A DNA stretch of 5,184 nucleotides, from contig CALALQ010000439.1 in the NCBI GenBank assembly GCA_937925595.1, forward strand, positions 1 to 5,184, read 5' to 3'. Of the stretch, positions 111 through 5,184 are shown piece after piece. The DNA is from an uncultured Demequina sp. Its GTDB lineage: Bacteria > Actinomycetota > Actinomycetes > Actinomycetales > Demequinaceae. The notes beneath the pieces were generated by a model. That model made no database searches. It had not been told where the DNA came from and saw only the letters and a list, made by a program, of their open reading frames with translations. The translations under genes and the position numbers were made by a program. The stretch's first letter is position 1. Each line of letters begins with the position of its first letter.

Positions 111-221
111 ATGGGTCAGGGCTGGGGTGACCACTACAGGCCGCTGGTCACGGTCGACATCGACCGCGTTCTTCGGCTGAGCTGCGTGAACGTCGAAGGT
201 TCGGAACGGCTAGGCACGTGA
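111..221 (+). pseudogene. Truncated HAD-family ORF (N-terminal remnant, 36 aa)
   Basis: This 36-codon ORF starts at ATG 111 behind AGGAGG. Residues 9-23 read YRPLVTVDIDRVLRL, and residues 9-23 of the intact HAD protein at 1448-2365 read YRPVVAIDIDGVLRL: 11 of 15 are identical, in the same register from the Met. The two motif I aspartates (D16, D18) are kept, but the usual Gly after the second one is Arg. After residue 23 similarity stops, and motifs II-IV are absent, so a phosphatase-type fold is impossible. Its TGA overlaps a possible GTG start at 218 (GTGA), so its translation could be coupled to the next gene. I infer a remnant left after most of a HAD gene was lost. The alternative is a leader peptide or small protein kept for coupling. 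Confidence 0.6.
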
Positions 222-244
222 GACGCGAACCCGGGGAGTGTGAG

Positions 245-748
245 GTGCCCGTCAAAGGAGTCCAAGACGAAGAGGGGAGCCGGCGCATCCGGAAGACCGA
301 CCAGACCCACGTTCACACGCCTACTCTGGCGGTCGCTGCGGCCCTGCAGGCGACAGAGAACGCGTGGCAGCGCATCGACCAGGAATTCGGACTCCTGAGT
401 TCGGCGCGCGTATCGCAACTCCTCGGAGCCGGTACCGCGAATCGAAACCTCGCGAACGAGATGCGCACCCGCGGCGAGCTTCTTGGCGTTCAGAGGCGCA
501 ATCAGTACCTCTACCCAGCATTCCAGTTCGATGCGCGGAACGGGACGGTGTGGCCCTGGGTCAAACCCCTGCATGAGCTGGCGAGCGACGAAAGCGTCGC
601 GGCGGAGGACGTGCTTCTGTGGCTGGTCCGCCCGACCACCTATCTGGGTGTCAAGAAGGATGGGACGGCGCCTCGGCCAGTTGACGTGGCGGAGGACGCA
701 CAGCTCCTGCTGAGCGTGGCGGCTAGGGCATGGGACGCACATCGCTGA
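245..748 (+). CDS. MbcA/ParS-like antitoxin-type DNA-binding protein
   Basis: A protein of 167 aa if read from GTG 245, which has GGGGAG 6 nt upstream. An alternative GTG at 218 adds nine residues and overlaps the preceding stop as GTGA. The first ~45 residues are hydrophilic and probably variable. A central block (about residues 50-95 from GTG 245) with LLSSARVSQLLG, then RNLANEMRTRGELLGV and LYPAFQFD, resembles the helix-turn-helix plus linker of Xre/MbcA/ParS-type proteins. The C-terminal block (about 101-165) with WPWVKPLHEL, DVLLWLVRPTTYLG and RPVDVAED resembles their toxin-binding domain (DUF2384-like). In that family such proteins bind DNA and neutralise a partner toxin, often RES-domain. 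No RES gene is visible here; its immediate upstream partner is the HAD remnant. The family match is from recall of sequence patterns, not a search. It is convergent with 824-1414. Confidence 0.7.
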   Translation: MPVKGVQDEEGSRRIRKTDQTHVHTPTLAVAAALQATENAWQRIDQEFGLLSSARVSQLLGAGTANRNLANEMRTRGELLGVQRRNQYLYPAFQFDARNGTVWPWVKPLHELASDESVAAEDVLLWLVRPTTYLGVKKDGTAPRPVDVAEDAQLLLSVAARAWDAHR

Positions 749-750
749 CC

Positions 751-798
751 GATGTGTTGATCGAACCGACCCACCAGCGCCGCCGCCGACAACACGTC
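751..798. terminator. Inverted repeat in the convergent intergenic gap
   Basis: GATGTGTTG (751-759) can pair with CAACACGTC (790-798): nine pairs including one G-T, around a 30-nt spacer rich in GCC triplets. A second small stem, GCCGA (785-789) with TCGGC (800-804), overlaps it. It sits in the 75-bp gap between two convergent genes, where a bidirectional terminator would be expected. There is no T-run on either strand, so a canonical intrinsic terminator is not shown. Confidence 0.25.
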
Positions 799-823
799 CT
801 CGGCACAAACCTCGAGGAGGGAT

Positions 824-1414
824 CTAAGGTGCCCGATGCAGATCCTCAATCAGCTCCCGTACCGTCCCGGGGTCGCCGCCCTGCAACAACCATCGGATGG
901 GCGAGACCCCGTCGAGCGACTCCCGGGGCGCGCAGAGAACGACGTGTCGGTCCAGGTCCGTGTAGTCCATCGGGAAGGCGCCGACGGCCGCGCGGAGCCC
1001 CGGGACGACTTCATCGAGCGGCAGGTCGGATAGACGATTCAGGCGCGCGCGCTCAGCACCTGACCGGATCGCGGACCACACAAGCCAGTCCTCAGCATCA
1101 CGCTCGCCTTGATCCGTGAACACCTTTGGCGACACGCCTCCCTGGATGACAAACGCGATCTGCTCTTCGCTGAGCGGGCTGACCGTCCAGGCGTCGGCGA
1201 GATCGTCCGTGACCGCACCGATGGCATCTATCAGACGCCGCAACACCGCGACCACCTCTACAAGCGTCGGACGCTGCTCGGAGGCGTCTGGCTCACCCAG
1301 CCGCTCTAGTAGCTTCCGGGCGTCGCGGTTTGCATCGCCGATCGCGGCGGCTAGTTCGGTTTGATTCGCGCGTGCCGGCAAGGGCGCCCCTTCAGCCTTG
1401 GAATCGATAGTCAT
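824..1414 (-). CDS. ParS/MbcA-like protein downstream of the HAD gene
   Basis: A protein of 196 aa. The ATG at 1414 is chosen over the one at 1429 because GGAGGA (1427-1422) lies 7 nt before it; the upstream ATG lacks a good site. Residues ~15-75 are predicted mostly helical (long Ala/Leu/Glu/Arg runs). Residues 81-97 (LSEEQIAFVIQGGVSPK) could form a helix-turn-helix. The C-terminus (about 160-193, with PRESLDGVSPIRWLLQGGD and TVRELIEDL) resembles the end of the MbcA/ParS toxin-binding domain, where a short helix, an SP(x)nWL segment and a final V..L..L helix recur. It lies 33 nt after the HAD gene on the same strand, so an operon is likely. I infer a regulator or neutralising partner of the HAD protein. 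No direct homology to 245-748 is obvious outside the C-terminal pattern, and the family call is weaker than for that gene. Confidence 0.55.
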   Translation of the reverse strand: MTIDSKAEGAPLPARANQTELAAAIGDANRDARKLLERLGEPDASEQRPTLVEVVAVLRRLIDAIGAVTDDLADAWTVSPLSEEQIAFVIQGGVSPKVFTDQGERDAEDWLVWSAIRSGAERARLNRLSDLPLDEVVPGLRAAVGAFPMDYTDLDRHVVLCAPRESLDGVSPIRWLLQGGDPGTVRELIEDLHRAP

Positions 1415-1447
1415 GCCCACATCCTCCATGTCGCGCCCGACATCCGC

Positions 1448-2365
1448 TCAGTTCGCCTCCTCGGTGGACTCCGTCCGCGACCAACGGATTATCGCGGCAA
1501 CGACGACATCGACTTCAGGGTCACCGCGCTGCCACCAATATTTGATAAGCGCACGCACCTGGTCGGCGTCGACCTCGGCGGTGTCGCGGAGGTAGTCCGC
1601 CACGTAGCTAGCGAATCGCGGGGGCGAACCACCGTTCAGTTGCGAGAGGAATTTGAAAGCGCCTCGCCACCGTCGTGCACGCTCGAGGGTGCCGTGACGG
1701 CTGAGCGCCCGTCGTCGACGCTGTGCCGCTTGTTCGTTGCGTCGTTGTCGACGGAGTGCGTCGTGTCCGTCCGGGGTGAAGGCGAGTTCGAGCCACGCCT
1801 CGACGCCGGCGATGTCGTTGGTCGTGATCCCTCGTCGGGGGTCCTTGATCCACCACGAAAGCGTGAGTGCTCGGTCGCGTGGGCTCCTCAACGCCTGCAG
1901 CTCGTAGGCATCGAGGTGTACTGGGGAGTCATCGACCCAGACCAGCGGGCGGCCTGGGTACCGGTATGCCAGCTCGCTGGTCTTCCACTCTGACGACGTG
2001 TATTGCTGTTCGTATGTCCCCTCCGTTCCGACGGGTAGGGGCGGGATGTTCAGGAGCGGGGCGAAGTAGACGTTTGCGAAGGATTGCCAGGTGGTCGCCC
2101 ACACGACCTCTATGTCGCGGGATAGGAGTGATCGGATCCAACGAGCTCCCGTTCCAGAGAGCCAGTAGGTGCGGGTAGCGGTGCCGTCGCGGTCCCAACG
2201 TGGGGCCTTGTGGTAGATCCTCGGGTACGCGTTCCGGTGAACGGTGAGTTCAACTTTGAACGCATCCGCGGGGCCCGGGCCTTCTGGTGGCACGGCAAGG
2301 CGGAGAACGCCGTCGATGTCGATTGCCACCACGGGTCGGTATCGGCTCTTGAGGGGGTCTTTCAT
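1448..2365 (-). CDS. HAD-fold protein (HAD_SAK_2-like) with basic C-terminal extension
   Basis: A protein of 305 aa starting at ATG 2365: AAGGA (2377-2373) is 7 nt upstream, and the truncated homologue at 111 begins at the equivalent Met. An ATG at 2416 would add 17 hydrophilic residues but has no clear ribosome site. HAD motifs are complete: motif I AIDIDGV (D16, D18), motif II VVWATTW (T91/T92), a motif III lysine K128 in EWKTSE, and motif IV VWVDDSP (D145, D146). The WATTW and VDDSP wording fits the HAD domain described in 'Swiss Army Knife' RNA-repair proteins (HAD_SAK_2), which may act on nucleic-acid phosphate ends; the substrate here is unknown. Residues ~196-305 are unlike the core: an Arg-rich stretch (205-234), then a helical tail, possibly for nucleic-acid or partner binding. 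Cytosolic: no signal or membrane segment. First gene of a likely operon with 824-1414. Confidence 0.75.
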   Translation of the reverse strand: MKDPLKSRYRPVVAIDIDGVLRLAVPPEGPGPADAFKVELTVHRNAYPRIYHKAPRWDRDGTATRTYWLSGTGARWIRSLLSRDIEVVWATTWQSFANVYFAPLLNIPPLPVGTEGTYEQQYTSSEWKTSELAYRYPGRPLVWVDDSPVHLDAYELQALRSPRDRALTLSWWIKDPRRGITTNDIAGVEAWLELAFTPDGHDALRRQRRNEQAAQRRRRALSRHGTLERARRWRGAFKFLSQLNGGSPPRFASYVADYLRDTAEVDADQVRALIKYWWQRGDPEVDVVVAAIIRWSRTESTEEAN

Positions 2366-3114: not shown

Positions 3115-3474
3115 ATGGTCGGCATGAGTTCAGTAAGAACAGATCGATACCCAGATGACCTCTCAGAGATAACTCGCCGTATCGGGGAAGTCGGCATCGC
3201 CGCCTACGCCCGGGAGCTCGGCGGGAGCACACAAGCTCTTCGGCGCTACCTGCTGCGCAGGGGAGTCGACCTGGTGAAGGTGCCGACACCGGGTCGAATC
3301 GTAAAGGCCGCCTACCCGGAGACGGTAGTGATGCTTCGGCACATCGCCACCGCGGGGGTGGAGTCTCTTGCGCGCGAGGTCGGTGTCAGCGGGAATGCTA
3401 TTCGAAAGGAACTGGCCCGCCGCGGCGTCACTCTTCCGAGGAGGCCATACGTTCGCCGTATTGAAGCTTCATGA
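3115..3474 (+). CDS. Small protein with two tandem helix-turn-helix-like repeats
   Basis: A protein of 119 aa from ATG 3115; ATG 3124 (residue 4) is an equal alternative, and neither has a visible Shine-Dalgarno site. It is built from two copies of a ~39-residue unit, residues 19-57 and 73-111, identical at 17 of 39 aligned positions. Both share the pattern ARE(L/V)G.S..A(I/L)R..L.RRGV.L. In each, AREL/AREVG, a turn at G-S, and the A-I/L-R helix look like a helix-turn-helix of the kind that reads DNA, followed by a basic strand-like tail with proline. The calculated charge is clearly basic, with Arg dominant. I infer a DNA-binding regulator recognising two adjacent half-sites as a monomer, but no named family is recognised. 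It stands alone, divergent from the decayed region, with 151 nt before the next gene. Confidence 0.65.
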   Translation: MVGMSSVRTDRYPDDLSEITRRIGEVGIAAYARELGGSTQALRRYLLRRGVDLVKVPTPGRIVKAAYPETVVMLRHIATAGVESLAREVGVSGNAIRKELARRGVTLPRRPYVRRIEAS

Positions 3475-3625: not shown

Positions 3626-4123
3626 ATGGGGAAGAACCCGGAGATTTCAGATGACGCGATCTATGCGGCGGTCGCGTCACGGCGCGCTGGCTTCGACAGT
3701 ATGGCGTGGCAGGTGCCGATAATCAGCCTCACGGCGCAGGCGTTCCTGTTCACGATCGCGCTTGGGCCGGACTCTCGGCCCTTCGCCCGGATCATCTCGG
3801 CTTCCCTCGCAGTAGCGGTCACCGCGCTCAGCATGTTGCTCCTTGCCCGGCACCGACAGGCAGACATCGCCGATGCCCAGTGGCTGGCGGATCTCGAAGA
3901 GCGCAGAGGTCGTGCGAGCAAGCAGATTATGGAGGCGCACGGAAGCGCGTGGAGGGATCGCCGTGACGATACGGAGATCCATCCTTGGTTTGACTGGATG
4001 AAGCGGTATCGAGCGTTCGTGGTGTGGGAGATCGGACTCCTGTTGTTCGGAATCGCCGGTATCGCGGTGGTCATCGTGACTCTGGTGGCACCCGGCTGGC
4101 TGGAGGCACCGGCTTCGGGGTGA
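3626..4123 (+). CDS. Small three-helix membrane protein
   Basis: A protein of 165 aa from ATG 3626; no ribosome site is visible and a leaderless start is plausible. Hydrophobic segments: about 27-47 (QVPIISLTAQAFLFTIAL), 53-74 (SLAVAVTALSMLLL) and 129-155 (WEIGLLLFGIAGIAVVIV). The first two form a hairpin with a short loop. The 75-127 stretch is charged (HRQADIADAQWLADLEERR and further Arg/Asp), probably cytosolic and partly helical. The N-terminus is acidic/polar and has no cleavable signal. Similar small hypothetical membrane proteins occur in actinobacteria, but I cannot name a family. It lies between a DNA-binding protein and hsdM; small membrane proteins in such settings may be effectors of defence systems, but nothing here shows that. 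Well separated from both neighbours, so probably its own unit. Confidence 0.75.
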   Translation: MGKNPEISDDAIYAAVASRRAGFDSMAWQVPIISLTAQAFLFTIALGPDSRPFARIISASLAVAVTALSMLLLARHRQADIADAQWLADLEERRGRASKQIMEAHGSAWRDRRDDTEIHPWFDWMKRYRAFVVWEIGLLLFGIAGIAVVIVTLVAPGWLEAPASG

Positions 4124-4327: not shown

Positions 4328-5184
4328 ATGACGCCCACGACGAGCGAAGCCCAGCGCGCGGAACTGCACAAGACGATCTGGAGGATCGCCAACGACCTTC
4401 GAGGGTCGGTGGACGGGTGGGACTTCAAGACCTACGTGCTCGGCATGCTGTTCTACCGGTTCATCTCCGAGAACCTCACTGCCTACATCAATGCCGGCGA
4501 ACGCGCGGCGGGCGAGGCGAGCTTCGACTACGCCACGCTCCCCGACGTGGACGCCGAGTTCGGACGTGCCGACACGGTGGCGGAGAAGGGGTTCTTCATC
4601 CTGCCGTCCGAGCTGTTCCAGAACGTCCGGGCACGGGCCGCGAAGGACGAGAACCTCAACGAGACCCTCGAGCGGGTGTTCAAGAACATTGAGGGCTCCG
4701 CGGTCGGCACCGACAGCGAAAACGACCTCAAGGGCCTGTTCGATGACCTCGACGTCAACAGCTCAAAGCTCGGGAACACGGTTGCCAAGCGCAACGAGAA
4801 GCTCGTCAAGCTCCTGAATGCCATCGGCGACTTGCCGCTGGGCGACTTCGCCGACAACTCGATCGACCTGTTCGGCGACGCGTACGAGTACCTCATGCAG
4901 ATGTACGCCTCGCAGGCCGGTAAGTCCGGTGGCGAGTACTACACGCCGCAGGAAGTGTCGGAAGTGCTCGCGCGGATCACCGTGATGGGAAAGACCCGCG
5001 TCAACAAGGTGTACGACCCTGCCGCCGGATCCGGGTCGCTGCTGCTGAAGTTCGCGAAGGTGCTCGGCAAGGAGAACGTCGGCGGCTTCTACGGTCAGGA
5101 GATCAACCTGACCACCTACAACCTCGCGCGCATCAACATGTTCCTGCACGACGTGAACTACGAGAAGTTCGACATCGCGCACGG
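4328..5184 (+). CDS. hsdM: Type I restriction-modification methyltransferase subunit HsdM (partial, 3' end outside window)
   Basis: The first 285 residues are present; the gene runs off the right edge. HsdM transfers a methyl group from S-adenosylmethionine to the N6 of adenine within the sequence chosen by HsdS, and is needed for both modification and HsdR-dependent cleavage. Residues ~10-165 form the HsdM N-terminal helical domain ([43 protein letters not shown]). The catalytic domain starts with [10 protein letters not shown] (201-210), then motif [12 protein letters not shown] (230-240, SAM binding) and GQEIN (256-260). The NPPY/F catalytic motif lies beyond the window. ATG 4328 is the first in-frame start; GGAGAG (4310-4315) is 12 nt upstream, longer than ideal. 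The closest family is the type IA HsdM. hsdS and hsdR are expected downstream. Confidence 0.95.

Follow-up and report, generated by a model that had tools for sequence, protein, structure and literature searches.

A HAD phosphatase-like gene beside a putative MbcA/ParS antitoxin relative in an uncultured Demequina sp.: a candidate toxin-antitoxin-like module

Introduction

Do a HAD-family gene and the relative of MbcA/ParS antitoxins encoded directly behind it work as one module, and are the two tied to each other? The question is raised by a 5184-nt stretch of DNA from an uncultured Demequina sp. (contig CALALQ010000439.1; hereafter the window), which holds two convergent gene pairs, then two short open reading frames (ORFs) and then the start of hsdM. 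On the minus strand a complete HAD gene is followed by a partner gene, and on the plus strand a HAD stub is followed by a partner of another type. The usual effector of MbcA/ParS/Xre antitoxin systems is a RES-domain, NAD-consuming toxin, and to our knowledge MbcA/ParS antitoxins are known only with RES toxins. RES and DUF2384 proteins are described as toxin and antitoxin in the part of a published account available to us (PMC3482391). Among the six window proteins scanned none matched RES, and a HAD gene or a HAD stub stands in its place. No paper on a HAD protein with an MbcA/ParS-type antitoxin was among the matches listed in our literature search, which was thin on subscription journals and bioRxiv.

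We propose, with about an even chance of being right, that the minus-strand pair would form a toxin-antitoxin-like module, in which a capless HAD phosphatase is the effector and a relative of the MbcA/ParS/Xre antitoxins restrains it. The wider survey suggests that the partner is not bound to HAD proteins, and that what recurs seems to be an exchangeable partner whose enzyme is RES, a calcineurin-like metallophosphoesterase (MPE) or HAD.

Results

The minus-strand pair occupies the coordinates given for it in the earlier note. Its HAD gene (1448..2365, minus strand) lies in an ORF spanning 1448-2416, with a likely start at ATG 2365 preceded by the Shine-Dalgarno-like AAGGA, and encodes 305 aa. 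The four motifs of the superfamily were found as AIDIDGV, WATTW, EWK and WVDD, in which we take motif I to be DxD, motif II T/S, motif III K and motif IV DD. The predicted structure (pLDDT 93.9) shows a Rossmann-like HAD core at residues ~8-208 followed by a helical C-terminal domain, and matches capless HAD phosphatases; a sequence profile of the family matched no solved HAD, such matches coming only from the fold search. Together, the four motifs and the model identify the gene product as a HAD protein, predicted to be a phosphatase. The partner gene (824..1414, minus strand) lies in an ORF of 824-1429 that is open from ATG 1429, and its likely start is ATG 1414, behind GGAGG, again Shine-Dalgarno-like, and 33 nt past the HAD stop codon, a start also used by the database homologue P0054.

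Neither window partner gave a match at E<=1 to any Pfam, NCBIfam or PADLOC family, save for a weak match of the plus-strand partner to DUF7002 (E 0.049), and the similarity to MbcA/ParS proteins is therefore argued through relatives. Two alignments served for this, one of the plus-partner family (A2, 13 rows) and one of proteins that adjoin HADs or are fused with them (A6, 14 rows). Both profiles had Rv2175c (PDB 2kfs) as their nearest solved sequence, the A2 profile at E 7.2e-10 over the winged helix and the C-terminal domain and the A6 profile at E 3.3e-10, while the match of A2 to MbcA (6fkg) was weak (E 0.21) and covered the toxin-binding part. PF09722 matched six of the 13 A2 members at E<=1, at best with E 0.0019. 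The two profiles also retrieved each other's members, A2 finding the fusion protein of locus L042 (5.8e-10) and the partner of L040 (8.7e-10), and the HAD-associated profile finding A2 rows down to 6e-8 and the two window partners at 4.7e-4 and 5.7e-3. A protein found by the A6 profile in genome G316 (L162) exceeded the cut-off of Xre_MbcA_ParS_C, PF09722 (32.0 against 24.5 bits), and another (L164) fell just below it (23.5 bits).

The minus-strand partner carries the MbcA/ParS-like C-terminal domain without a winged helix, as a stretch of ~37 residues that holds it in L040 and L049 is missing here (alignment A4). The DNA-binding domain is present in the family of the plus-strand partner and missing in the minus-strand one. 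A profile built only from window-type minus partners, which lack the winged helix, found two proteins directly upstream of RES genes (L166 and L167) at 6e-18, mainly on the C-terminal domain. A search of the PDB with the profile of the minus partners gave nothing credible. Judged from these sequence comparisons, both partners are related to winged-helix, MbcA/ParS-like antitoxins. The likeness to MbcA/ParS that had been read from the letters alone is thus borne out by way of relatives, through the A2 and A6 profiles and the RES-adjacent homologues, and not by a direct Pfam match. As a separate observation, L167:1471-3885 joins the RES-adjacent partner domain and a phosphotransferase (APH, PF01636) in one frame of 804 aa, of which the true start may lie further downstream.

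How regularly is such a partner found beside a HAD? Scanning genome contigs with the single protein gave no match, and an alignment-based scan gave seven loci. The HAD family was matched in 23 of 366 Microbacterium genomes, and of 349 genomes of the bacterial family only one, G001 of the same genus, matched strongly, so that among the genomes searched strong matches were confined to Microbacterium. Nineteen HAD loci, picked by the HAD alone, were read from 18 of the 23 genomes, the five weak-hit genomes G009, G133, G151, G202 and G364 being left out. HAD and partner domain were fused in frame at four of them (L042, L043, L045 and L046), and at six more a partner lay within 700 bp on the same strand (L001, L004, L040, L044, L048 and L049), so that the expectation that HAD homologues elsewhere would adjoin or be fused to such partners holds at 10 of the 19 loci. 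Two further loci had the partner at a greater distance, 1.7 kb (L041) and 3.1 kb (L002). L001 mirrors the window, with the HAD followed after 18 nt by a partner 39% identical to the minus-strand one over 176 residues. Three partner types occur fused to a HAD: one in P0028, one in L042, and one in L043, L045 and L046. P0028, one of 53 HAD homologues, joins in its 442 aa a HAD and a minus-type partner that is 41% identical to that of the window in alignment A3. Only one of 16 distant HAD loci had a partner, L057, whose genome (G647) lies outside the 366; its genes form an MPE-partner-HAD operon with a 4-nt overlap between partner and HAD.

Further features of these loci were seen in passing. Two HADs, of which only one keeps the full motif-I aspartates, occur together in L003, L004 and L042. 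A protein with the pattern APGxYxxxTxSxxxYxxE...RTTSRV (by eye) recurs beside HADs (L040:7351-7857, L043:8450-9382, L045:6246-6860, L046:8961-9989 and L003:8731-9672) and, at L043 and L046, forms one protein with a partner domain; Pfam had no match for the copies in L040 and L043. A tryptophan-rich protein of 133-160 aa lies just upstream of a HAD or MPE gene in L002:7588-7989, L005:7528-7986, L043:5952-6434 and L100:5633-6109, and those of L002 and L005 had no Pfam match. Stand-alone short HADs of 165-183 aa without a partner occur on actinobacterial plasmids (L175-L177) and in two loci from viral contigs (L008 and L009), which makes plasmids and viruses a possible mobile source of the family. 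Partial HAD matches, each over less than 80% of the query, were found in 43 plasmid records, all from actinobacterial genera; the three Streptomyces plasmid records opened (L175-L177) showed no partner. The viral contig scan gave no minus-type partner, and phage records gave no match.

The partner has a wider company than the HAD. In a census of 62 genomes, RES (PF08808) occurred at 24 places in 19 genomes, and at 17 of these 24 an A6- or A4-type partner lay within 300 bp on the same strand, always upstream. Of 219 Microbacteriaceae genomes, 33 had the plus-type partner; among 15 loci from 15 of these 33, mostly the strongest matches, a RES gene came directly after the partner in eight, and MPE was adjacent in one. 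A broader tally covered 87 partner instances at 79 loci, an enriched sample in which the 60 non-HAD partner loci came from the upper part of the match list and not at random, with near-duplicates among them (L097/L098; L130-L133). Within 700 bp on the same strand these instances had MPE only in 32 cases, RES in 12, HAD in eight and HAD with MPE in three, the totals being 35 for MPE, 12 for RES and 11 for HAD although HAD loci had been sought out. RES genes, in this tally as in the 15 plus-type loci, were called by a small profile made from three Pfam-confirmed RES proteins. Among the 366 Microbacterium genomes A6 occurred in 140, A4 in 40 and the HAD in 23. Because the partner outnumbers the HAD in genomes and adjoins MPE, RES or HAD, the unit seems to consist of an exchangeable partner and one of these enzymes. 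An exclusive HAD-antitoxin pair was rejected, the partner being commoner than the HAD and more often beside MPE or RES. The pairing that the earlier note drew from one locus thus recurs elsewhere without being exclusive, in either direction.

The plus strand tells of a loss. The stub (111..221) encodes the first 36 residues of a HAD and ends in TGA; 25 of the 36 are identical to residues 1-36 of the HAD P0013 (tblastn E 1.25e-9), no more than 13 was reached by any of 2000 shuffled versions of the stub compared with the 44 HADs P0001-P0044, and the stub has Arg in place of the Gly after DxD that is invariant in all 35 aligned HADs. Because the match lies so far above the shuffled stubs and Arg stands at an invariant position, one HAD gene appears to have been lost and its neighbour kept, as had been proposed, the stub being real and 36 aa long instead of the 23 conserved residues first counted. 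Apart from the stub, a search of the window with P0013 found no significant trace of a HAD but the minus-strand gene. The neighbour (245..748, plus strand) has a winged helix and an MbcA/ParS-like C-terminal domain. Its ORF is open from GTG 218, where a GTGA overlap had been taken for its start; this is probably not so, and GTG 245 is the likelier start, being preceded by the Shine-Dalgarno-like GGGGAG (by eye) and used as the start in the database entry P0057.

Two convergent copies of one module, as initially read, are not what the comparison gave. In the HAD tree P0013, the nearest relative of the stub, falls outside the supported clade (99/93) that holds the minus-strand HAD, the stub itself not being placed, and the likeness between the two partners is weak and limited to the C-terminal part (hhalign E 0.01, probability 4%). 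Since HADs and partners are of different types, the modules are not recent copies, and on this evidence the plus strand is the remnant of a second, different module from which the HAD was deleted.

The convergent stop codons are separated by 75 nt (749..823), in which no terminator-like stem or inverted repeat was seen. Searches of the window for operator-like inverted repeats, promoters, terminators and Rfam matches yielded nothing of use; a single imperfect inverted repeat falls within the HAD stub. Between the module and hsdM stand two short ORFs (3115-3474 and 3626-4123) with no family match over the cut-off, of which, by eye, one is helix-turn-helix-like with an internal repeat and one has two likely membrane helices. 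The 5' part of hsdM (4328..5184, plus strand), of a type I restriction-modification system, matches TIGR00497 (E 2.1e-121) and runs off the window. Over 284 residues it has 92% identity with the hsdM of L042, a gene next to the HAD-partner fusion of that locus; there a complete type I restriction-modification operon lies between the fusion and a motif-less HAD, and hsdM adjoins the module in L049 and L051 also. Elsewhere the Gabija proteins GajA and GajB (E 5e-186 and 2.3e-186) lie 3.6 kb from the HAD in L005, a Dsr1-like SIR2 protein 1 kb from it in L044, and a DUF4062 protein is a neighbour in L003. Seven of ten large neighbours from seven of the 19 loci matched a PADLOC model and three did not (L003:2825-6085, and those of L004 and L048); these proteins were picked by eye and thus give no rate.

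Discussion

For the minus-strand pair we favour an arrangement in which the HAD would be a phosphatase effector that the partner binds and restrains. Partners that keep the winged helix may also repress their operon, and the minus-strand partner, because its winged helix is lost, would act by protein contact alone. In Microbacterium, these relatives of RES antitoxins would have been re-used with two phosphoesterase effectors, the HAD and the MPE, often together, and probably in defence. We infer binding and inhibition of the HAD by its partner, harm done by the free HAD to the cell or to an infecting phage, the nature of its substrate, and a role of the whole in phage defence.

Several observations weigh against this. 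One or both motif-I aspartates are lost in 10 of 35 HADs, which is odd for a toxin. PF09722 matched neither window partner and passed its cut-off in only three of 59 Microbacterium genomes. The minus-strand partner was modelled poorly (pLDDT 61), and fold searches with this model gave only unconvincing helix matches, mostly to residues 12-83, with neither MbcA nor ParS among the best 50 matches listed in either search. A HAD stood beside the plus-type partner at none of the 15 loci, and 32 of the 87 partner instances had no MPE, RES or HAD within 700 bp on the same strand. Gene order differs too, the partner preceding RES in 17 of 17 cases but following the HAD in seven of 11 and MPE in 31 of 35. 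Lastly, nine of the 19 HAD loci had no partner within 700 bp, and seven had none in the stretch read; at four of the seven (L006, L047, L050 and L051) the HAD is partial or split.

The main rival, which we regard as less likely but which may overlap with an effector held by an antitoxin, is a defence operon that is not of the toxin-antitoxin kind. HAD and MPE would act together, as in DS-9, with the partner as either a DNA-binding repressor or a tether by which they are localised or assembled, and a fusion would keep the enzyme with its regulator. An MPE does lie on the strand of the HAD, and no more than 1 kb from it, at 10 of the 19 HAD loci, L003 and L039 have both enzymes without a partner, and HADs are fused to winged-helix partners. 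DS-9 is described, in the portion of the report available, as a two-gene system with anti-phage activity that pairs a metallophosphatase with a HAD phosphatase, in which defence needs the catalytic residues of the metallophosphatase (MPE) and the role of the HAD is stated as unknown (PMC13092281). Within the window, however, no Metallophos match was found by a Pfam scan of six proteins, and the window was absent from the MPE cluster in ORF clustering; moreover, the minus-strand partner lacks the winged helix, and partner relatives adjoin RES toxins.

Capless HADs accept large substrates, as would suit an RNA-repair or nucleic-acid-end module, in which a HAD of the HAD_SAK_2 kind would dephosphorylate RNA or DNA ends while its expression is under the control of the partner. 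PF18143 (HAD_SAK_2) matched 16 of 35 aligned HAD relatives at E<=5 (best E 9.2e-6), and the distant HADs of L057 (44.8 against 27.5 bits) and L008 exceed its cut-off. The window protein (1448-2365), for which the earlier note had suggested this family, gave no match at E<=1 and thus stays short of the cut-off, and we consider this explanation improbable. A neighbourhood due to chance, with no functional link, inside a mobile or defence island that is decaying would fit the patchy spread in 23 of 366 genomes, the partial or split HADs and the many partner-free loci, yet this is very improbable and strongly disfavoured because HADs are fused with three partner types, and 10 of 19 loci are paired when the partner family occurs in only 140 of 366 genomes of ~3.4 Mb.

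Returning to the HAD effector restrained by an antitoxin relative, we would tentatively suggest, at somewhat less than an even chance, that RES has been swapped for HAD or MPE, giving a new class of toxin or abortive-infection effector held by MbcA/ParS-type antitoxins, sometimes in fusion, with the DS-9 enzymes counted among these effectors. If the pairing with HAD and MPE proves consistent, the MbcA/ParS antitoxin fold would be a general adaptor for enzymes and the partner a possible controller of MPE and HAD anti-phage systems. Fused and split versions of the HAD and partner make the contact between enzyme and partner directly testable.

Compared with known systems, the HAD shares its core, in relatives, with HAD_SAK_2, from which the window protein differs by the missing match and its extra helical C-terminal domain. 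Rv2175c of Mycobacterium tuberculosis, a DNA-binding protein not known to us as an antitoxin, resembles both winged-helix partner profiles most closely among solved sequences, whereas the minus-strand partner of the window lacks that helix. DS-9 is likened here by gene content and description, not by sequence: in L003, L039, L043 and L045 the MPE and HAD genes are immediate neighbours on one strand, whereas no MPE was found in the window and the available portion of the DS-9 report does not mention an MbcA/ParS-like partner (PMC13092281). From RES-Xre, MbcTA and ParST (DUF2384, PF09722) the module differs in its enzyme, a predicted HAD phosphatase, in a mostly reversed gene order and in a minus-strand partner without the winged helix; nonetheless the partners share the C-terminal domain of these systems and, in most of the relatives read, the winged helix, and members of the family stand beside RES genes.

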